Virus record (IMG/VR): IMGVR_UViG_3300044991_001606
Coordinates: 1 to 43,368 of that record
Length of the DNA stretch: 43,368 nt
Reading direction: 5' to 3' (one strand)
From: a virus
In this document: piece after piece, positions 2,934 to 43,368 of the stretch
Layout: each line of letters begins with the position of its first letter
Position numbering within the stretch: the stretch's first letter is position 1
Program-made: the position numbers and the translations under genes
Notes under the pieces: generated by a model
Database searches by the model: none
Seen by the model: only the letters and a program-made list of their open reading frames with translations
What the model was told of the DNA's origin: nothing

Positions 2934-3039
2934 TTCGCCGCGAGCCAGGCAGGTTTCGCGTGAGATTATGGCAGACGTAACAACCAGAGAATGGATCGAG
3001 GCTGAGGCGGCACTCGATCGGGAGGAAGGGCGATTATGA
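2848..3039 (+). CDS. Small hypothetical protein
   Basis: About 60-63 residues, beginning at GTG 2848 (aaggatcggag upstream) or at ATG 2857. It is charged and helical (KQIKKGVWLARQFRRTG; TREWIEAEAALDREEG) with no Cys pairs or membrane segment. It overlaps the end of the hydrolase gene by about 86 bp in another frame, and its stop overlaps the next start as ATGA at 3036. That indicates translational coupling within the envelope/lysis operon. No family is recognised. Confidence 0.5.
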   Translation: MKAMADAERLKQIKKGVWLARQFRRTGVDSPRARQVSREIMADVTTREWIEAEAALDREEGRL

Positions 3040-3338
3040 GCGGCGGCCAAGATGAAGTATGGGTGGAACATAAAGACGCAATAGACCTGTTGGTCGCCGA
3101 AGTGCGAGAGCAGGCCAAAAGAAAAAAAGCTGAAACTACGGCTTGCCAGTATGAGCTTGTCGGAATGACAACCGAGCGAAACCGCTATCGTACTGCGGCA
3201 GAGTTGTGGGAAGGAAGATTCAACGCGGTAAGCGAATCGCAAATCGGGGCGTGGAACCGAGGATTTTTGTACGGCATGGTGTTTGGGGCGTTTTTGGCCG
3301 TTGTGTTGAGTATTTTCGGTTACGTCATAGCGGTGTGA
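3036..3338 (+). CDS. Single-helix C-terminal membrane protein (holin/spanin-like candidate)
   Basis: A 100-residue protein with an 80-residue hydrophilic, charged N-terminal part and one hydrophobic helix at the end (GFLYGMVFGAFLAVVLSIFG). It has no signal peptide or lipobox. The start overlaps the previous stop (ATGA). A soluble domain plus C-terminal anchor, next to a wall-hydrolase-like gene, makes it a candidate lysis accessory. Sequence alone cannot separate a holin, an inner spanin or an unrelated tail-anchored protein. Confidence 0.6.
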   Translation: MSGGQDEVWVEHKDAIDLLVAEVREQAKRKKAETTACQYELVGMTTERNRYRTAAELWEGRFNAVSESQIGAWNRGFLYGMVFGAFLAVVLSIFGYVIAV

Positions 3339-3386: not shown

Positions 3387-4931
3387 ATGCGAGAAGCGAT
3401 GCGAGAAAAACGATGCCGAGTGATCGTTGTGCAGCTTTGGCAAGCGGCCTTAGCATTCGTCGCTGCGATCGCCATTATGTGGTACGCGGCTTCCACCGTT
3501 TGCGGTGCCGAGGCCGATCAGCCGCCTACGTTGATGGCATTCTCTGCGACCTGGTGCGGGCCGTGCCGGTCAATGGAACCGGTGGTGGACCAGCTTGGCC
3601 GCGATGGTTATGTCGTGCAAAAAGTGGACATCGACCAAAACGGCCAGCTTGCCGCGAAATTCGGCGTCCAGGCTGTGCCGACGTTTATTGTCGTGGAGCG
3701 AGGCGTCGAGGTGGATCGGGTCACCGGCTCCACGACAATCGAACGATTGAAAATGAAGCTGCGGCAAAAATCCGGCGACGAACAGCCGAGAGAATCTTTT
3801 CGAGAGAAGTTGAAGTCGCGTGGAAATGCGAAGTCAAAGCCTAGCGAAAAGCCAAAAGCCGAGCGGCAGCCGTCACCCGCGTGGCGCTACGAAAATCCCG
3901 TGGGCCACCGTGCGGCTGTCGTTCGCATTTACTGCAAAGACACCGAGCGTGTAAGCTCGATCGGTTCCGGCACCCTGGTACGCTGGGGCGCAAAGAGGAT
4001 CGTGGTATTGACCGCGAACCACGTCATCAAAGACGCCAAGTCGATTATCGTCGAACTTTTCAATAAGAAGACCTATCGGGCCAAGGTTCTTAAATTCGAT
4101 GCAACGTGGGACTGTGCCGTATTGGAACTCACCGGCCTGCCTGCGGGCGTCGAATGCGTGAATCTTGAGCTTGGCGACCCGGCCATGCAGCAGGAAGGCA
4201 ACCGTCTCGAATCGTGCGGCTATGGACCCGATGGCAAACTTGCGGCCAATAGCGGCTTGTTTCTCGGCTACAAGCGTTCGACGGCCACGCCCAACGGCCC
4301 GGACGATTGGTTCGAGATTTCCGGCCATGCCCGACAAGGAGACTCGGGAGGCGGCGTATTCAACGCCAAGGGCAATCTTGTCGGCGTGCTCTGGGGCACA
4401 GACGGCAAAGTGGTAGTCGGCGTCCAGGCAGGCCGGATTCACGTTTTGCTCGATTCTGCCATTGAACAGCGGGCGTACTGGCCGCTGAATCGTGCGGCTA
4501 CGGTGGACCCAAGCCACTACACCGCTCTGCAATTTATGCAACGGAACCCTACGCCCGCGAAACCGCTAATGCCCATCGAGGACTTGCCAGCCTACAACAG
4601 CGGCGGCGGAACGTGCGGGCCGAATGGTTGTCCTCTGCCCGGCCCGGCGGCAGAAACCATCGACGAAACTGCCGCCTCCAAAAAACCGTTGCTTCCGTGG
4701 CGTGGCGATACCCAGGCCCGCGACGATTCGCAGGACGCACGGATTGAAGCCTTGATTCGCTTGGGCGAGCAAAAGGCCCGCGAACCCGCCGCGCAGCCGC
4801 CTGAGCGTGGCGTAGTGGTGGAAGTCGGCCCGCCCGCGAAGAAAGAGCCGTCGCCCGTCGGCGTGGTGCTTTGCCTCCTGGCCGCCGTGGTCGCCGGGTT
4901 TGTGTTTTTCTACGGCGTCCAAAAGAAATAA
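3387..4931 (+). CDS. Membrane-anchored thioredoxin-trypsin fusion protein
   Basis: A 514-residue predicted envelope protein. In order it has: a hydrophobic signal/anchor (about 14-37); a thioredoxin fold with the redox motif WCGPC (Cys57, Cys60) and the cis-proline loop VPTF (Pro98); a Lys/Ser/Pro linker (about 125-165); a trypsin-like domain with His212 (TANHVI), Asp242 (WDCAVLEL) and Ser320 (QGDSGGG); a Pro/Gly-rich region; and a C-terminal helix (about 492-510). The complete triad and CxxC suggest both domains are active outside the cytoplasm. ATG 3387 has a strong GGAGG site. Thioredoxins and proteases occur singly in phages, but I know of no described phage protein with this architecture. 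Its role (envelope remodelling, lysis, exclusion, host-protein processing) is unknown. Confidence 0.85.
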   Translation: MREAMREKRCRVIVVQLWQAALAFVAAIAIMWYAASTVCGAEADQPPTLMAFSATWCGPCRSMEPVVDQLGRDGYVVQKVDIDQNGQLAAKFGVQAVPTFIVVERGVEVDRVTGSTTIERLKMKLRQKSGDEQPRESFREKLKSRGNAKSKPSEKPKAERQPSPAWRYENPVGHRAAVVRIYCKDTERVSSIGSGTLVRWGAKRIVVLTANHVIKDAKSIIVELFNKKTYRAKVLKFDATWDCAVLELTGLPAGVECVNLELGDPAMQQEGNRLESCGYGPDGKLAANSGLFLGYKRSTATPNGPDDWFEISGHARQGDSGGGVFNAKGNLVGVLWGTDGKVVVGVQAGRIHVLLDSAIEQRAYWPLNRAATVDPSHYTALQFMQRNPTPAKPLMPIEDLPAYNSGGGTCGPNGCPLPGPAAETIDETAASKKPLLPWRGDTQARDDSQDARIEALIRLGEQKAREPAAQPPERGVVVEVGPPAKKEPSPVGVVLCLLAAVVAGFVFFYGVQKK

Positions 4932-4970: not shown

Positions 4971-5381
4971 ATGAACGAACTTTTGGTATGGCAGTACATT
5001 GGCATTTTCTTCGCGGCACTCGCTGCCGTTACGCTGTTTCTGTACGGCTGGGGTCGCCGGGAGGAACGCCGCGAAAAGGCGGGCGAGTTGGCCGTCACAA
5101 TGAATGAATGGGGTTTTGAGCACCTCGCCAAGCTGCTTAGAGCCTATTCGATCGGCAACTATCTCGGCAAAAACTCCGTGACCCGCACTGTACATGAGAT
5201 GATCGACGAACTGAAAACCGATGGCGGCCTGCGGGCGATGCTCAAAAAGATCGGGTGGAAGGTCGTTGAAGGCGTTTTTCTGAAAAATGCAGACGACCGG
5301 ACTCGACTACAGACGCTTCTGACAGCCTCGACCACCATCGCCCAGGCAACCGGCGTAACGCCGCCAGCCCCGACGTTGTAG
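4971..5381 (+). CDS. N-terminally anchored membrane protein
   Basis: A predicted 136-residue protein with one N-terminal transmembrane helix (WQYIGIFFAALAAVTLFLYG), a basic stop-transfer patch (RREERREK) and a helical soluble domain of about 100 residues. That orientation puts the soluble part in the cytoplasm under the positive-inside rule. An AAAGGA site precedes ATG 4971. It lies 39 bp after the thioredoxin-trypsin gene and is likely in the same transcript. No family is recognised; a holin or lysis-timing role is possible by neighbourhood only. Confidence 0.65.
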   Translation: MNELLVWQYIGIFFAALAAVTLFLYGWGRREERREKAGELAVTMNEWGFEHLAKLLRAYSIGNYLGKNSVTRTVHEMIDELKTDGGLRAMLKKIGWKVVEGVFLKNADDRTRLQTLLTASTTIAQATGVTPPAPTL

Positions 5382-5460: not shown

Positions 5461-5649
5461 GTGGCCATGCTTGCGGAACTTGCCGGATTGCCAGAAACAG
5501 TGAAGGCCCTGGCGGCGGCAAAGCCCATCATCCAGGAAGGCAAACACGCTGCACTGGATGGCAAGCTGGCTAGGATCATTGCAATGGTTGTTGCAGAACA
5601 CGCGGCGGAAAGAGAAAGAGCCGGAGAAGCATGGCCCCAGCAAAAGTAA
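5461..5649 (+). CDS. Small hypothetical helical protein
   Basis: A predicted 62-residue protein. GTG 5461 is chosen because GGAGG at 5450-5454 is well spaced; ATG 5467 is the alternative. It is amphipathic and Ala-rich (LAELAGLPETVKALAAAKP), ends in a charged tail and has no clear membrane segment or motif. Its 3' end overlaps the next gene by 19 bp. Coupling suggests the two act together, but the function is unknown. Confidence 0.5.
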   Translation: MAMLAELAGLPETVKALAAAKPIIQEGKHAALDGKLARIIAMVVAEHAAERERAGEAWPQQK

Positions 5650-5963
5650 ATGACGACGGCGGGAGTGTGTCGGTTCCCTTAGATGAACACACAAAAGCCA
5701 TTGCCGAAGCAGCCGCACGCGAGGCCGTCCGCGAGCACATGGCAACGTGTCCGATCATGAGTGAGTTTCGCACGATGCACGCTGACTTCTATGGCCCGCC
5801 AGGTGAGAAGAGCGAGCATCCAGGGACGATGGGCGAAGTGCAATCCTTGAAAGAGTGGCGAGGCGCGGTGACGGGTCATCTTGTGCGATTGTGGGCGGCG
5901 GCGGTGGTGATAGCCGGGGCACTCATCGGACCGCTTTGGGCATGGGCCAACTCGAAACAGTAA
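5631..5963 (+). CDS. C-terminally anchored small membrane protein (XhlA-like holin candidate)
   Basis: A predicted 110-residue protein: a charged soluble region, a short linker with QSLKEWRGAVTGHLVRL, and a single C-terminal helix (WAAAVVIAGALIGPLWAWA). The layout resembles XhlA-type haemolysin/holin accessory proteins, although no diagnostic motif is present. ATG 5631 follows a GGAG site. With the hydrolase and the other one-helix proteins it rounds off a block that looks like an envelope/lysis module. Confidence 0.6.
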   Translation: MAPAKVNDDGGSVSVPLDEHTKAIAEAAAREAVREHMATCPIMSEFRTMHADFYGPPGEKSEHPGTMGEVQSLKEWRGAVTGHLVRLWAAAVVIAGALIGPLWAWANSKQ

Positions 5964-9865: not shown

Positions 9866-10513
9866 ATGCAGATACGCAACAGAATCAAAGAACTTCGGCA
9901 GGTCCGGGCAGGTGACTTGAGGCCCAACCCGAAAAACTGGAGAACTCACCCGATCGAACAGCAGAATGCCTTGCGTGGACTTCTGGCAGAGATTGGTTTT
10001 GCCGACGCCCTGTTAGCTCGAGAACTTGACGACGGATCGTTGGAATTGATCGACGGCCACTTGCGGGCGGAAACGACGCCCCATGAAACCGTGCCCGTAC
10101 TGGTCTTGGACGTGAACGAACAAGAGGCCGACCAACTGCTGGCAACATTAGACCCGCTGGCGGGCATGGCGACCGCCAACAAAAACACCCTAAACGAACT
10201 GCTTGGGAATGTGGAGTTTAAGAGCGATGCTGTGACGGCGATGCTGGGCGACATCCTGGGCGGCCCGGCGTCGGGCGTCGATGGGAAAGACAAGAGCGTC
10301 GCTGAGTTGGAAATCAGCCCTGAACTGTTCGAGCGGCAAGACTACTTGGTTGTGTATTTCGACAACGAATGGGACTGGAACGTCCTATGTGAACGGCTTG
10401 GAGTGAAAACGGTTGCTAATGCCATCATCGACAGATCCAGTACGATCAAGCAAAAAGGGCTCGGGCGAGTCGTTAGCGCCAAGGTTTTGCTCAGGGAACT
10501 CGGCTATGGTTGA
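9866..10513 (+). CDS. ParB/sulfiredoxin-fold protein
   Basis: A 215-residue protein with the N-terminal ParB-like fold: RAGDLRPNPKNWRTHP (residues 14-29) and the catalytic-type motif LIDGHLRAE (61-69), which corresponds to the nucleotide/phosphate-binding box. Family members act as CTPases, DNA nickases or partners of DNA-modifying enzymes. There is no ParA nearby and no partition HTH is obvious, so plasmid segregation is unlikely. ATG 9866 follows GGAAGG; earlier in-frame starts lack a site. The 3' end overlaps the glycosyltransferase gene by 8 bp, so the two probably work together, most plausibly in DNA base modification (inference). Confidence 0.75.
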   Translation: MQIRNRIKELRQVRAGDLRPNPKNWRTHPIEQQNALRGLLAEIGFADALLARELDDGSLELIDGHLRAETTPHETVPVLVLDVNEQEADQLLATLDPLAGMATANKNTLNELLGNVEFKSDAVTAMLGDILGGPASGVDGKDKSVAELEISPELFERQDYLVVYFDNEWDWNVLCERLGVKTVANAIIDRSSTIKQKGLGRVVSAKVLLRELGYG

Positions 10514-11270
10514 ACTCGATGACAGAATCCACGTCGCCATTCGATCCTACAAAAGGGCTGGCAAGGTGACAACATTTGGTTCCTTCCCCTTCGCCCACGT
10601 CTGGGTGCCCGAATCGCAAGGTGAAGACTATCGCAAGCACTACGGGGATCGTGTGGTCACGATCCCAGATGCTTGCGATGGCAACCTTTGCCGCAAGAGC
10701 AACGCCATCCTGGACCGCTCCCCGCGTTCCTGGACGCTCATCATCGACGACGACATCACACGTATCGGCATGTGGGAGGGTGGGCAGCGGCACTGGCTCA
10801 GCCCCGAGCAGATTGCCGTGATGATCGTCCATCACTTTGAGTTGGCTGAGCAAATGGGCGTTCGATTGTGGGGGATCAATCAGAACTTTGACCCAACGTC
10901 CTACCGCGTCTACTGCCCATTCAATCTGCTGTCACCCATCCTTGGCCCGTTCAACGGCCACCTGTCGCCTGAGTTGCGATACGATGAGTCGATGTTGGGC
11001 AAAGATGATTACGACTTCTGGCTTCAGAACATCCGCCGCCATCACAAGACGCTACGTGCCAACAAGTATCACTACGTCCACGATCATGGCAAGAAGGCAG
11101 GCGGCTTTGTATCAATGCGAACGGCGGAGGCAGAACAGAATGGGGCGAATAGGCTGATAGCCAAGTGGGGTGGCAGTGTGATTCGTCCAGGCGGGGTAAA
11201 GGGCAAGCGGCACAGTACAGGCAAGAACATCCTCAACACAAGGGTGATCGTGCCCATCAACGGTTGCTGA
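10506..11270 (+). CDS. GT-A-like glycosyltransferase (TET-associated family resemblance)
   Basis: A 254-residue protein resembling the phage TET-associated glycosyltransferases predicted to add sugars to hypermodified bases. The pattern is a beta strand ending in VWVPESQGEDYRKHY, an R/N-containing segment (GNLCRKSNAILDRSP) and the metal/sugar-nucleotide-binding strand WTLIIDDDITRIGMW with Asp81-83. ATG 10506 has an AGGGA site and overlaps the ParB-like gene. No TET/JBP oxygenase or nucleotide-modifying enzyme is seen in the window. Either the acceptor base is made by host or unseen genes, or this protein modifies another target. A general GT2-like enzyme is the alternative. Confidence 0.6.
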   Translation: MVELDDRIHVAIRSYKRAGKVTTFGSFPFAHVWVPESQGEDYRKHYGDRVVTIPDACDGNLCRKSNAILDRSPRSWTLIIDDDITRIGMWEGGQRHWLSPEQIAVMIVHHFELAEQMGVRLWGINQNFDPTSYRVYCPFNLLSPILGPFNGHLSPELRYDESMLGKDDYDFWLQNIRRHHKTLRANKYHYVHDHGKKAGGFVSMRTAEAEQNGANRLIAKWGGSVIRPGGVKGKRHSTGKNILNTRVIVPINGC

Positions 11271-14547: not shown

Positions 14548-16029
14548 ATGAGTCTGCGTTCCGCAATTCGATCTTTGTTTTCCGATGATCGGACGCGATC
14601 GAAGTTTTCCGACTCCGATCAAAATCATGTCGGTCCGCGCTCGATTCAGTCGCGTTATGACGCCGCACAAACTAGTGACGAAAACAAGCGGCACTGGCAG
14701 TGGGCCGACTCATTTTCCGCCGACGCTTCAATGGTTCCCGGCGTCCGACGTTCCCTGCGGATGCGATCGCGTTACGAAATTGCCAACAACTCCTACGCAA
14801 AAGGGATCGTGCTGACGGTCGCAAACGACACGATTGGAACCGGTGCTCGATTGCAATGCCAGGGAGATAACGGCGATGATCTTGCCGAGGTGGAAGGCCG
14901 TTGGGCAGAGTGGGCAGACGCGACATTATTGGGCATGAAATTGCGGACAATGGTAATGTCCCGAATCGGCGACGGTGAGGCGTTCGGAATGATGGTGGAT
15001 AACCCACGAAATCCGAATCCCGTCAAGCTCGACATCAAACTGATCGAGACCGATCAGGTTGCGGACATTTGGATGCCGATGCTTTTGCCTAACTTGGTGG
15101 ACGGGATGGTGCTCGATGAGTTTCATAATCCTCTTGAGTATCACGTCTTGAAATACCACCCGGGCGGCCTCTATCCGATGACGAATTTCGAGTCGGAATC
15201 GGTTGCAGCCCGCTACATGCTTCACTTGTTTCGCCGTGACCGCCCCGACCAATCACGCGGTGTCCCTGAGATTACACCGGCATTGCCGCTCTTTGCACAA
15301 CTGCGGCGTTTTACTCTGGCCGTCATCAGCGCGGCGGAAGCGATTGCCAACCATGCGGCGGTAATCGAAACGAACGGTCCGGCGGTCGATGGTGATTCGG
15401 AAGGGGCCGAGCCGTATGATCTTGTGGAATTGAACCGCAACATGGCGACAGTGCTGCCGGACGGCTATCACTTGAACCAGCCAAAGCCAGAACAACCAGC
15501 AACGACATACGGTGAGTTCAAAAAAGAAATTCTCAACGAAATAGCACGGTGTCTTAATCTTCCCTTCAACGTCGCTGCATGCAATTCATCCTCCTACAAT
15601 TACGCCTCAGGCAGGCTCGATCATCAAGTTTATTTCAAGTCGTTGTCGGTGGATCGCCACCATGTTGAAAAAACCATTCTTGACCGAATCTTCCGCGAGT
15701 GGTTTTTTGAGGCGAGCGGAGTCTACCGCTGGGGATTTCCAATACCGTCGCACTGCTGGAGGTGGGATAGGTTTGCGGACATCGATCCGGCAACCGAGGC
15801 GACGGCCAGACTCACACGGCTTGCAACCGGAAGCTCTTACGCAACGGAAATGGCCGAGCAAGGAAAAGACCCCGACGAAGAGCAGCGGAGTGCGGCAAAG
15901 TATTTAGGTGTGACCGTGGCGGGGTTCCAAGAACTACTACGGCAGCGGCTCTTTGCAAACCAGCAAGCCACCTCACTGCCTGGATCAACTCAAGGAGAAA
16001 GCGCCAATGGCCAAACCACGGCGGCATGA
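14548..16029 (+). CDS. Phage portal protein, lambda family
   Basis: A 493-residue portal that forms the dodecameric channel at one capsid vertex for DNA entry and tail attachment. The lambda-family signature begins with RARS/RYEIANNSYAKGIVLTVANDTIGTGARLQCQ (about 75-110). The rest follows the family pattern: LFRRDRPDQSRGVPEITPAL in the middle, and NLPFNVAACNSSSYNYASGRLD near the wing/clip. Length is normal for the family. It overlaps the protease-capsid gene by 23 bp. Confidence 0.92.
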   Translation: MSLRSAIRSLFSDDRTRSKFSDSDQNHVGPRSIQSRYDAAQTSDENKRHWQWADSFSADASMVPGVRRSLRMRSRYEIANNSYAKGIVLTVANDTIGTGARLQCQGDNGDDLAEVEGRWAEWADATLLGMKLRTMVMSRIGDGEAFGMMVDNPRNPNPVKLDIKLIETDQVADIWMPMLLPNLVDGMVLDEFHNPLEYHVLKYHPGGLYPMTNFESESVAARYMLHLFRRDRPDQSRGVPEITPALPLFAQLRRFTLAVISAAEAIANHAAVIETNGPAVDGDSEGAEPYDLVELNRNMATVLPDGYHLNQPKPEQPATTYGEFKKEILNEIARCLNLPFNVAACNSSSYNYASGRLDHQVYFKSLSVDRHHVEKTILDRIFREWFFEASGVYRWGFPIPSHCWRWDRFADIDPATEATARLTRLATGSSYATEMAEQGKDPDEEQRSAAKYLGVTVAGFQELLRQRLFANQQATSLPGSTQGESANGQTTAA

Positions 16030-18019
16030 CCCGACAACCATTGATGTACGCGCGGAGTCGTTTTCGATCATCGAAGCGGCTGCGGGTGAAGGTCAACCGA
16101 AGATTCCACGATTTGACATGCTGGCCTACACGGGTGGCCCGTTGCGTCTCGGCAATTTCACGAATCCCGTTGTCGCCGATCTTGCCGGAATGAAAATACC
16201 GTCGCAGAGCCGACCTGTTCGGTTGCAGCACGATGCCAATATGGGCGTCGGTCACACGGACATGATTGCAAACGATGGTCGGTGTCTCAAGGCATCTGGC
16301 ATAGTGTCGCGTTCCACGCCTGCGGCGGCCGACGTGGTGGCGTCCGGCTTGAACGGCTTCCCCTGGCAGGCGTCGATGGGCTGTTCGATCGAGGCCAAGG
16401 AGTATCTGGCCCCTGGCGCAACGGCTTTTGTCAACGGGCAAACAATCAGCGGGCCGTGCATCATCGCGCGACAAACGACGCTGCGCGAACTCACGATATG
16501 CGATGCGGGTGCGGACGATCAAACCTCTGTTAATATCGCGGCATCGGCCGCACAGACAACCAAGGAGTTTATTATGGACCCGAATTTTCAAGAATGGCTG
16601 CAAGCGAAAGGATTTAACCCCGACTTGCTGGCCGATGTCGGCGTTTCCACGCTCGAGGCAGCGTGGGAGGCCGAAATCAAGGCGGCCCAAGTTGAGACGC
16701 CGGACCCCAAGACGATCCAGGCGACCAGTCCGGTCGCCGACATTCGTGCTGAGTCGGCCGCCGAGTCGCTGCGGATCAGTGCCGTTCGCAAGGCGTGTGG
16801 CGGTAAGCACGGTGAGATCGAGGCCAAGGCCATCGCCGAGGGTTGGGACGAAACCAAGACGGAGCTGGCCGTGATCCGGGCCGAGCGACCCAAGGCCCCG
16901 GCCGGTCACGTCGCCAACCATTCGCTCGACGGCACGGTGATCGAGGCGGCCATCCGTCTCGGCACTGCCGAGCAGCAATCGATCATCGAGGCGGCCTACA
17001 AGCCGGAAATCCTCGATCGTGCATATCCGCTTCGCGGAATCGGCCTCCGTGGCCTGATTCAGGCGTGCTGCGCTATGGACGGCCGCGAAGCACCGGCGGC
17101 ATGGGCACAAGAAGGCGAAGTCATCAGGGCGGCATTTTCCACGGCCAGCTTGCCGGGGATTCTGTCGGCGGCCATGAATAAGACGTTGCTTTCCGCCTAT
17201 CAAGCCGTGCCAAGCACAGCCAAGCGGATTGCGCAGAAGTTGACCGCCAACGACTTCAAAACACACACCGGCTATCGTCTTACCGGCGATGCGATGATGA
17301 AGGAAGTCGGCGCTAACGGTGAACTCAAACACGGTACGCTTGGAGAGCAATCTTTCACCTACTCGGTGAAAACCCACGGGCGCATTTACGGAATCACGCG
17401 GCAGATGCTCAAGAACGACGATCTTGGCGCATTGATGGGGATTCCCCGGATGCTAGGCCGAGGCGCAGCCTTGGCGCTTGAGGATTGTTTTTGGACGTTG
17501 GTCTTGGCGAATACCGGCAACTTTTTCCACGGGAACAACAAAAACCTTTCCACCGGCTCCGCCCTCGCCTCCGCTGGTCTTGGGAAGGCTGTGCAAAAAC
17601 TGCGTGATCAAACCGACCCTGACGGGAATCCGGTCTTGCTCTCGCCCAAATTTGTCGTGTGCCCGACGGCGCTCGAAGAGACGGCATGGGAACTGTTCAA
17701 GTCCACCAATATCGCTGTATCTGGCACGACGGACGCTGTTCGCGCCAATGCGAACATCTACGCAGGCTTGTATGAGCCGGTCGTGACGCCGTACCTCGGC
17801 AACAGCACCTACGCTGGCTACAGCGCCACCTCGTGGTATCTCTTCGCCGATCCGCAAGACATCGCCGCTTTTGGCCTTGCGTACCTGGATGGCAACGAGC
17901 AGCCTACGATCCAAGACGCGCCGCAAGACCCGGACGTTTTGGGCCAAGGTTGGCGCGGCTTCTTTGACTTTGGCGTCTGCCAACTCGATCCACGCGGAGC
18001 CGTCAAGGCCACCGCGTAA
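16007..18019 (+). CDS. Prohead protease fused to gpT-like major capsid protein
   Basis: A 670-residue polyprotein. Residues 1-180 look like a phage prohead serine protease, with His75 in PVRLQHDANMG and Ser123 in WQASMGCSIEA. Residues about 290-670 match the Mu gpT-type/HK97-fold major head subunit (LRGIGLRGLIQACC, HGRIYGITRQMLKNDDLGAL, GQGWRGFFDFGVC). Between them, residues about 190-290 are charged and helical, like a scaffold/delta domain. ATG 16007 has AAGGAG at 15992. An internal RBS at 16562-16567 with ATG 16574 could yield capsid without protease. The fusion resembles those of other protease-capsid phages. Confidence 0.88.
   Translation: MAKPRRHDPTTIDVRAESFSIIEAAAGEGQPKIPRFDMLAYTGGPLRLGNFTNPVVADLAGMKIPSQSRPVRLQHDANMGVGHTDMIANDGRCLKASGIVSRSTPAAADVVASGLNGFPWQASMGCSIEAKEYLAPGATAFVNGQTISGPCIIARQTTLRELTICDAGADDQTSVNIAASAAQTTKEFIMDPNFQEWLQAKGFNPDLLADVGVSTLEAAWEAEIKAAQVETPDPKTIQATSPVADIRAESAAESLRISAVRKACGGKHGEIEAKAIAEGWDETKTELAVIRAERPKAPAGHVANHSLDGTVIEAAIRLGTAEQQSIIEAAYKPEILDRAYPLRGIGLRGLIQACCAMDGREAPAAWAQEGEVIRAAFSTASLPGILSAAMNKTLLSAYQAVPSTAKRIAQKLTANDFKTHTGYRLTGDAMMKEVGANGELKHGTLGEQSFTYSVKTHGRIYGITRQMLKNDDLGALMGIPRMLGRGAALALEDCFWTLVLANTGNFFHGNNKNLSTGSALASAGLGKAVQKLRDQTDPDGNPVLLSPKFVVCPTALEETAWELFKSTNIAVSGTTDAVRANANIYAGLYEPVVTPYLGNSTYAGYSATSWYLFADPQDIAAFGLAYLDGNEQPTIQDAPQDPDVLGQGWRGFFDFGVCQLDPRGAVKATA
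16562..16576 (+). promoter_or_regulatory. Internal ribosome binding site and start for capsid-only product
   Basis: AAGGAG at 16562-16567 is followed six bases later by an in-frame ATG at 16574 (Met190 of the polyprotein). The site sits exactly at the boundary between protease and scaffold/capsid domains. Initiation here would give a 481-residue capsid precursor in excess, similar in principle to the lambda C/Nu3 nested arrangement. Confidence 0.6.
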
Positions 18020-28225: not shown

Positions 28226-28272
28226 TCCAGGGAAATCGGTAGGCAAGCTCCTGCCGCCTTAGAAGTCGCCAA

Positions 28273-28305
28273 TAGTCCGGCTATAGTCCGGCTGTAGTCT
28301 GACTC
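28273..28305 (+). repeat. Three tandem 11-nt repeats leading into attP
   Basis: Units start at 28273, 28284 and 28295 (tagtccggcta, tagtccggctg, tagtctgactc). The first two are identical over ten bases and the third is degenerate, merging into the tRNA-like sequence. The one-turn spacing suits integrase or accessory-protein binding sites. Confidence 0.65.
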
Positions 28306-28344
28306 TTAATCAGAGGGTTCGCAGTTCGAGTCTGCGAGGGGGCA
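28298..28344 (+). other. Putative attP: 3' part of a tRNA-Lys(CTT) gene
   Basis: This segment folds as the tRNA anticodon arm (stem 28298-28302/28310-28314, loop ctcttaa with anticodon CTT), a 5-base variable region and a T-arm (28320-28324/28332-28336, loop ttcgagt). It ends with the acceptor strand agggggc and discriminator A (28344). No matching 5' acceptor or D-arm exists upstream, so it is not a tRNA gene. Tyrosine integrases commonly use such a tRNA 3' copy as attP so that the host gene is restored on integration. The integrase is 1.8 kb downstream. Confidence 0.75.
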
Positions 28345-28380
28345 CTTAAAGCGTTGCACAGAAAAGGGTTAAGAGTGCGA

Positions 28381-37270: not shown

Positions 37271-38137
37271 GTGGGACGTAGACGAATGAGTACGGGCGAA
37301 AAGCCTGAAAAGAAACTCCCGACTAAAATCAAGCCGATACCACGCAAACATGCCGGTAAGATTACCGCACCGTGGACGCTCATGGAACGGCTCATCGAGG
37401 AGGTGGAGGAATTCGCACACCTGAAGGTGGCGAAGATCAAGTTGTGGTGGCAAAAGGACTGGAAGGCCGACGTTGATGGAATCGCGATCGGTGCCCAAGT
37501 CTGCAAGGCCAGTGAGGTTGACCGCAATCTCGTTGAGGAATCGAACGGCGAAACGGTGGACTTGTTTATCAAGTTGCCTGAAAAAGTGTGGCCGACGCTC
37601 GATGAAACCGAGAAAGAACATCGGATGTTCCATGAACTATGCCACATTATGCCTGCAAAAAACAGCAACGGCGACCAGAAGCGGGACTCAAAGGATCGAC
37701 TGTTGTGGCGGCTACGCAAGCATCCGATTACCGCGTTCCACGAAGAAATTCAGCGTTTTGGAATGGACCGCGTTATCGGCCACAACGCAACGCTTCTTGC
37801 GTCGATCGAAATTGCGGATCGTCCGATGGAACGCCTCTTCGATGAGGCTGAGGCGAAGCCTGAGCCTGAGAGTGGTGAGGAAAACGCAGACGACAAAAAC
37901 GCAAAAGCGTGGCGACGCTTCAAGGTGACTAAGCTAGCGATTGAAGAGAAGATCGCCGCGAAGTTGCTTGATTTCGGACTCACGACCCTCGGTAAGCTAT
38001 TCGACCACATGTCCGATCAGGGCATGTTTTGGGCGAAGGAAATCCCAGGCGTCGGAGAATCGTCGGCCGACAAAATCAGCGATGCCTTCGCACAGTTTTG
38101 GGCGAAACATCCTGAATTTTGTTGCGAGACGACGTAA
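37271..38137 (+). CDS. Putative phage metallopeptidase with HhH domain
   Basis: A 288-residue protein. The first half has the putative phage metallopeptidase/zincin core with HELCH (residues 121-125, HExxH) preceded by DLFIKLPEKVWPTLDETEKEHRMF. The middle carries acidic low complexity (EAEAKPEPESGEENADD). The C-terminus has a helix-hairpin-helix-like segment (LLDFGLTTLGKLFDHM ... IPGVGESSADKISDAF), typical of DNA binding. GTG 37271 has AAGGA nine bases upstream; ATG 37286 is the alternative. A DNA-tethered protease acting on repair or replication proteins is a fair inference. A hairpin terminator follows. Confidence 0.7.
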   Translation: MGRRRMSTGEKPEKKLPTKIKPIPRKHAGKITAPWTLMERLIEEVEEFAHLKVAKIKLWWQKDWKADVDGIAIGAQVCKASEVDRNLVEESNGETVDLFIKLPEKVWPTLDETEKEHRMFHELCHIMPAKNSNGDQKRDSKDRLLWRLRKHPITAFHEEIQRFGMDRVIGHNATLLASIEIADRPMERLFDEAEAKPEPESGEENADDKNAKAWRRFKVTKLAIEEKIAAKLLDFGLTTLGKLFDHMSDQGMFWAKEIPGVGESSADKISDAFAQFWAKHPEFCCETT

Positions 38138-43002: not shown

Positions 43003-43368
43003 ATGCCATTCCATCCTGAAAACGTAAGTTACGCCGAGGCCCGCCGGAAAATCCGCGATGGGGATATTCTGCTGTTCCGGTCGAAAGGCTTCCTTTCACA
43101 ACTGATCCGCGTCGGCGGTCGGTCGGAATACTCCCACGCCGCGATGGCTGGTTGGTGGGGTGATCGCCTCATGTGCGTCGAAATGACCGATAGCGGCGGC
43201 CAGGCACAATTACTATCCAATCTCGTGGAGCGGATGCCAGCGGCCATCGACGTGTTTCGGGCCAATGCCACCCGCCGGAGGTTTTCCCGCGAAAAGGCCC
43301 TGGCCGCGATGGTGGCCATTACGGGCAAGCCCTACGGTAACTGGAATCTAATCAGGGCGGCGGCGATG
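43003..43368 (+). CDS. NlpC/P60-like hydrolase, second copy (3' truncated by the window)
   Basis: The first 122 codons of a homologue of the 2193 gene. ATG 43003 with GAGG upstream gives MPFHPENVSYAEARRKIRDGD, and the catalytic-type histidine (EYSHAAMAG) is present; the Cys region is beyond the window. The first ten residues differ from copy 1, whereas the final stretch is identical at the DNA level. This is either the same gene seen again because the molecule is circular, or a paralogue. Confidence 0.85.
   Translation, partial: MPFHPENVSYAEARRKIRDGDILLFRSKGFLSQLIRVGGRSEYSHAAMAGWWGDRLMCVEMTDSGGQAQLLSNLVERMPAAIDVFRANATRRRFSREKALAAMVAITGKPYGNWNLIRAAAM
43032..43368 (+). repeat. Direct repeat, copy 2, at the window end
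   Basis: Matches 2219-2555 with about 14 substitutions, offset 40,813 bp. Bases 43242-43368 are identical to 2429-2555 (127 bp), and the window stops at the last identical base. Confidence 0.95.

Follow-up and report, generated by a model that had tools for sequence, protein, structure and literature searches.

What would a phage gain from a protein in which a thioredoxin and a trypsin-like protease are joined, and on which structure of its host would such a protein act? The question is raised by a locus in an IMG/VR virus record (IMGVR_UViG_3300044991_001606, positions 1 to 43,368; this whole 43,368-nucleotide stretch is referred to below as the window), which holds terminase, portal, capsid-protease, tape measure and replication genes. 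An earlier note, made from the letters of the window, had described the protein and proposed redox opening followed by proteolysis of host envelope proteins, for lysis, for exclusion of other phages or for processing of a phage protein. The analysis reported here follows up these proposals.

The host of the virus is very probably a planctomycete, as judged from sequence relatives: the window's C92 and ParB-like genes are 43–48% and 53–64% identical, respectively, to genes of elements found on the chromosomes of planctomycetes, Lacipirellula limnantheis among them. To our knowledge, planctomycete phages and their way of breaking their hosts are almost unstudied, and it is a long-standing question how far the planctomycete envelope relies on disulfide-linked protein besides peptidoglycan. 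Cysteine-rich, disulfide-stabilised envelopes are reported for these bacteria (PMC2754498); peptidoglycan sacculi are present and lysozyme-sensitive (PMC4432640); many peptidoglycan genes are non-essential in Planctopirus limnophila, and the high cysteine content of a YTV-domain protein restricted to Planctomycetia has been suggested to regulate wall rigidity (both PMC10632474).

Anatomy of the fusion and reality of the gene

The open reading frame at 3387–4931 (plus strand, as are all features of the locus; ATG start) encodes a single protein of 514 amino acids, with both enzyme domains in one frame. Residues 1–43 (3387–3515) form a hydrophobic N-terminal helix (hydropathy; AlphaFold helix 2–43), a putative secretion signal, either cleaved or retained as an anchor. 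Residues 45–127 (3519–3767) form a CxxC-type thioredoxin domain with W56-C57-G58-P59-C60 and Pro98 at the cis-Pro position (PF00085, residues 45–125, E 1e-17, 64 bits against a cutoff of 23.5). Residues 176–355 (3912–4451) form a trypsin-like serine protease domain (PA clan, S1-like; PF13365, Trypsin_2, residues 193–334, E 2e-20, 74 bits against a cutoff of 27.6), with the His-Asp-Ser triad in a chymotrypsin fold; the catalytic His212 (4020–4022), Asp242 (4110–4112) and Ser320 (4344–4346, in GDSGGG) are invariant among 47 aligned trypsin domains. A juxtamembrane motif around PLLPWRxDTQxRDDxQDAR (residues 432–459; 4680–4763) is common to the window and its orthologues in contigs L002 and L262. 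Residues 490–513 (4854–4925) are predicted as a C-terminal transmembrane helix with a basic end (AlphaFold and hydropathy), also found in L002, L262 and L309; residues 493–511 are the most hydrophobic 19-residue stretch of the protein (mean 2.67). Pfam, the 47-domain alignment, hydropathy and AlphaFold thus bear out the anatomy given in the earlier note (signal or anchor, WCGPC thioredoxin, intact trypsin triad and C-terminal helix). Residues 410–415 hold a short two-cysteine motif of a kind also seen after the signal in trypsin-only relatives; such motifs (CPGGNC, CVGGSC, CGPNGC) recur at the N-termini of L245, L294, L271, L305 and L238 and in the tail of the window protein.

The CxxC (C57/C60), the triad and GDSGG are present in all five phage fusions, and Pro98 is invariant across the three that were aligned. 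The orthologues in L308 and L309 have N-terminal signals of ordinary, cleavable-looking type; that in L308 has a longer tail, with the helix further from the C-terminus. A sequencing error or artificial join of two genes, which the earlier note had named as a way for its reading to fail, is excluded because both domains lie in one open frame in four independent IMG/VR contigs (L002, L262, L308, L309). Between the window and L002, dN/dS is 0.10 in each domain; by this sequence measure both domains are under purifying selection.

Predicted structure and nearest protease families

The AlphaFold model rests on ten sequences from the window and from viral loci (with two sequences, pLDDT was 34). 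It reaches pLDDT ~90 in both domains and has helices at 2–43 and 490–513, disordered linkers and an unreliable relative placement of the domains (pTM 0.42). Compared with the PDB, the modelled protease part matches DegS (Z 26) and MarP (3k6y, Z 24.2), and its nearest solved relatives are DegQ, DegP and DegS, so that an HtrA-like fold is predicted. The structure search proposed in the earlier note thus placed the trypsin part and, among the best 50 matches of the viral fold search, returned no clear two-domain relative. By profile the domain falls outside both neighbouring families: TIGR02037 (HtrA/Do) gives 56 bits against a cutoff of 416, with no PDZ match in Pfam, and NF033740 (MarP) gives 53 bits against a cutoff of 250 (NCBIfam E 2.5e-14, below the family cutoff), the protein having one N-terminal helix and not the four of MarP.

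Gene neighbourhood

The gene upstream of the fusion (2193–2933) encodes a C92 permuted papain-like hydrolase (PF05708) with no evident signal peptide, whose putative catalytic His (HAAMAGWW) and Cys (FCSQA) are invariant in an alignment of 14 sequences. Small open reading frames with one hydrophobic segment each flank the fusion: a 100-amino acid protein with a C-terminal segment (3036–3338; hydropathy; homologue in L002), a 136-amino acid protein with an N-terminal segment (4971–5381; homologues 3' of the fusion in L002, L262 and L309) and a 110-amino acid protein with a C-terminal segment (5631–5963; homologues in L002 and L262). The block of small membrane proteins described earlier is thereby confirmed; the wall-hydrolase-like neighbour is a hydrolase gene, though by Pfam a permuted papain-like amidase and not a canonical wall hydrolase. 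Among the neighbours of the fusion, C92 gave the sole match, and no holin, endolysin or spanin family was matched in Pfam, PHROGs or NCBIfam. Those window open reading frames that were scanned (part of the total) gave no match to a canonical endolysin family, and the window may hold an unrecognised endolysin.

Two other assignments were rejected. A role as capsid maturation protease was dropped because the window has its own capsid-protease gene (15953–18019) and the fusion carries a secretion signal. As to a defence system, PADLOC gave matches to the trypsin region of the fusion only (RT-Protease, LmuA and weaker ones) and none to its neighbours; the proposed exclusion of other phages likewise found no support.

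Several further features of the window were recorded. The start of the C92 gene (2217–2516) is repeated at 43030–43329 with 95% identity, cut by the contig end, and may represent a second copy, a strain mixture or an assembly join. A TET-associated glycosyltransferase-like open reading frame (PF20691) lies at 10413–11270 and may point to modified phage DNA; a putative phage metallopeptidase (PF18894) with a DUF3701 match lies at 37271–38137, and a tRNA-Arg(ccg) gene at 28253–28345.

Orthologues in other phage contigs

Scans of viral contigs with the window fusion or its parts returned the 85% identical orthologue of L002 only, which has the same neighbours as the window, and the scan of genome contigs returned none. 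A scan with the window's ParB-like gene, situated between cassette and terminase, brought in 80 viral loci, including L262 (48% identical in a first alignment and 50% in a larger one); L308 and L309 (53–54% identical) were found with a three-sequence fusion alignment. All four further orthologues are full-length, and from its recurrence in five viral contigs the fusion is a genuine phage protein. C92 lies directly upstream in 5/5 contigs and a homologue of the 136-amino acid membrane protein downstream in four (window, L002, L262, L309; absent from the L308 DNA examined), a conserved block of hydrolase and membrane proteins such as lysis cassettes have. The backbones that carry the fusion are of at least two terminase types, one in the window and L309 (41% identical terminases) and another in L262, the contig of which also has an ABC/GNAT gene.

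Other hydrolases in related elements

Beyond what the earlier note had described, a serine protease directly after C92 recurs in related phage elements. A trypsin domain is fused to C92 or directly follows it in 11/13 C92 loci, a count that includes loci reached through the fusion itself, and in 5/7 of the loci found via the ParB-like gene, which is the least biased count. In L131 and L238 the C92 and trypsin domains are fused; L230 and L233 have C92 but no protease between C92 and ParB. Trypsin relatives without thioredoxin, the complete forms of which carry, for the most part, a signal and hydrophobic helices at the C-terminus, occupy the slot of the fusion in prophage-like elements. As regards the prophage survey proposed earlier, trypsin-only relatives hold this slot in planctomycete prophage-like elements, and the full phage fusions are those of the five viral contigs.

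In seven related elements of Gemmata-like genomes, ParB is preceded by a trypsin-like gene and there is no recognisable C92; in two of those read in detail a phospholipase A2-like gene lies close upstream of the trypsin gene (L197, 7381–7755, Pfam above cutoff; L205, 12787–13161). A subtilisin-family (subtilase) gene with no evident signal lies at a comparable place in L194, and in the distant phage contig L009 a lone thioredoxin with a signal is encoded upstream of ParB and terminase. This gene order suggests that the locus is a place for secreted hydrolases generally and not for one fixed enzyme.

Phage-like elements or their C92 genes lie near one and the same chromosomal endo/exonuclease/phosphatase-like gene in different planctomycetes, namely in L127 (Lacipirellula), L194, L152 and the viral contig L233, and a MoaB-like gene is likewise near in L127 and L152. 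The common neighbour may mark either a single site of integration or an element inherited vertically and perhaps GTA-like.

Chromosomal fusions of planctomycetes

Thioredoxin-trypsin fusions were also found on chromosomes, in at least 31 of 392 sampled Planctomycetota genomes and in two of seven other genomes; the architecture is therefore not unique to phages. In the 33 whose open frames were extracted, with both domains, an Arg precedes the catalytic Ser in every case (GRSGG, against GDSGG with Asp in the phage-type proteins), and no strong C-terminal helix was found. The two best-matching ones sit among housekeeping genes. In the trypsin tree the chromosomal fusions lie on one side of a branch with 97–100% support and the phage proteins lie outside, the five phage copies forming one clade with conserved phage neighbours. 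A joint clade of phage and chromosomal fusions is rejected with the long-branch rows included (p 0.004) and is not rejected when L280 and L271 are left out (p 0.46); the thioredoxin tree does not discriminate (p 0.28), and a shared or a convergent origin of the fusion would both agree with these trees. Recent capture of a chromosomal fusion by the phage is not supported by the trypsin tree. The earlier note had counted it as a refutation if the architecture should prove to be a known host chromosomal family without phage association. In part this applies, as chromosomal fusions do exist; the phage association stands nonetheless, because the chromosomal fusions are a separate family (Arg before Ser, no C-terminal helix).

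Two related observations concern other trypsin-like proteins. L280 (596–2320) encodes a phage trypsin-like protein after C92 with GRSGS, which resembles the chromosomal fusions more than the phage ones, on a long tree branch; chromosomal trypsin-like proteins among housekeeping genes in L126, L130 and L143 represent an unstudied planctomycete family, and two of them (L126, L143) carry a hydrophobic helix at the C-terminus.

Proposed role and alternatives

The reading that fits best, at a probability of about 45%, is that the fusion serves in the lysis cassette of these phages as an enzyme directed at the envelope of planctomycete-like hosts. From the domains and their setting (a phage protein, intact active sites, hydrolase and membrane-protein neighbours) we infer secretion, a reductase direction, a substrate, a timing and a part in lysis, as follows. 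By way of the signal both domains would cross the inner membrane, to be tethered at its outer face by the C-terminal helix. Host DsbD-type proteins would recharge the thioredoxin half (DsbD is above cutoff in 53/59 planctomycete genomes); this half would reduce disulfides of cysteine-rich envelope proteins, and the trypsin half would then cut the opened chains. The C92 enzyme, let out through one of the small membrane proteins, would finish the breach; it would need release, as endolysins do, because it has no evident signal. A secreted reductase and protease fits a disulfide-linked protein target. Several points weigh against this lysis reading: the peptidoglycan wall of planctomycetes is lysozyme-sensitive (PMC4432640), none of the small membrane proteins belongs to a known holin or spanin family, no protease stands between C92 and ParB in L230 and L233, and the host is assigned from relatives only. 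In addition, secreted thioredoxin folds may act as oxidases or isomerases too, and the window protein has no Asp ahead of WCGPC, as E. coli thioredoxin does. A stronger form of the proposal, that progeny are released mainly by dismantling a disulfide-linked protein envelope, is doubtful; here the fused reductase-protease would replace or precede peptidoglycan hydrolysis as the decisive step and related elements would have different secreted hydrolases in its place (trypsin alone, C92-trypsin, or phospholipase A2 with trypsin).

The leading alternative, because C92-trypsin fusions exist (L131, L238), is that the fusion activates the neighbouring C92 or a holin-like partner in the manner of MarP, the protease half processing C92 in the periplasm and the thioredoxin half keeping its catalytic cysteine reduced. 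C92 lies upstream in all five contigs, its putative catalytic cysteine is invariant, the trypsin domain resembles MarP by profile and by structure, and mycobacterial MarP, a similar protease acting on a hydrolase, cleaves the NlpC/P60 hydrolase RipA (PMC6628586). This reading is nevertheless rather unlikely: the likeness to MarP is no closer than that to DegS and DegP, no cleavage site was identified, and the Gemmata-like elements carry the protease without a recognisable C92. That the DegQ, DegP and DegS structures are the nearest solved relatives, and that planctomycetes carry the same domain pair on the chromosome, would also agree with periplasmic quality control or host takeover, in which the fusion would work during infection as a DegP-like protease with a disulfide helper, removing or folding secreted proteins such as receptors or phage proteins, and would take no direct part in lysis. 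This we consider unlikely; the fusion has no PDZ domain, and its close association with C92 and small membrane genes, with other secreted hydrolases in comparable places, fits a cassette better.

Redox-switched phage lysis enzymes exist, e.g. P1 Lyz, and the thioredoxin half, as an oxidase or isomerase of the fusion or of its neighbours, might turn on the protease in the oxidising periplasm. Cys183, Cys243 and Cys277 of the trypsin part, invariant in the three phage fusions aligned, agree with such a switch; trypsin-only relatives hold the same slot without any thioredoxin, and we regard it as improbable. Least probable is a host chromosomal gene captured by the phage, with a housekeeping role and no phage-specific function: the 33 chromosomal fusions in Planctomycetota share the domain order, but they form a separate clade, are all GRSGG and have no C-terminal helix, and all five phage copies group together and keep conserved phage neighbours.

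Redox opening and proteolysis for lysis, as first proposed, remains the best-fitting reading of the fusion, at the strength of an inference. In the literature searched (open-licence papers) no phage thioredoxin-trypsin fusion, no thioredoxin in a lysis cassette and no matching planctomycete phage lysis was found; if the role in lysis is true, the strategy is one absent from that literature. A reductase-protease conserved among phages of different terminase type would offer a natural way to probe the planctomycete envelope and possibly a tool for opening these cells.

Comparison with known systems

As in a canonical lysis cassette (holin, endolysin, spanin), a hydrolase and small membrane proteins are clustered in the window; unlike it, the window has no recognised endolysin or holin family and has a putative secreted reductase-protease instead. 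The C92 neighbour has the His and Cys of the permuted site of its family (YiiX/YaeF; PHROG 1128), a family that has no established function in phages and is not a proven wall hydrolase. With HtrA proteases (DegS, DegP, DegQ) the fusion shares the chymotrypsin fold, the His-Asp-Ser triad and a periplasmic location, predicted for the fusion; it differs in having no detected PDZ domain, a thioredoxin in front, a C-terminal anchor and scores far under the NCBIfam cutoffs. MarP (Rv3671c) is likewise a membrane-anchored chymotrypsin-like protease (anchoring predicted for the fusion) linked to an NlpC/P60-type hydrolase, but has four N-terminal helices and no thioredoxin. E. coli thioredoxin has an Asp before WCGPC, which the window fusion lacks and some orthologues keep. 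The chromosomal fusions (e.g. those of Blastopirellula marina DSM 3645, L092) have signal, thioredoxin, linker and trypsin-like domain in the same order as the phage protein; they differ from it in GRSGG, the missing C-terminal membrane helix, their separate clade and, in the two examined, housekeeping neighbours. On present evidence the fusion is a variant of phage envelope-attack genes and not a categorically new system.
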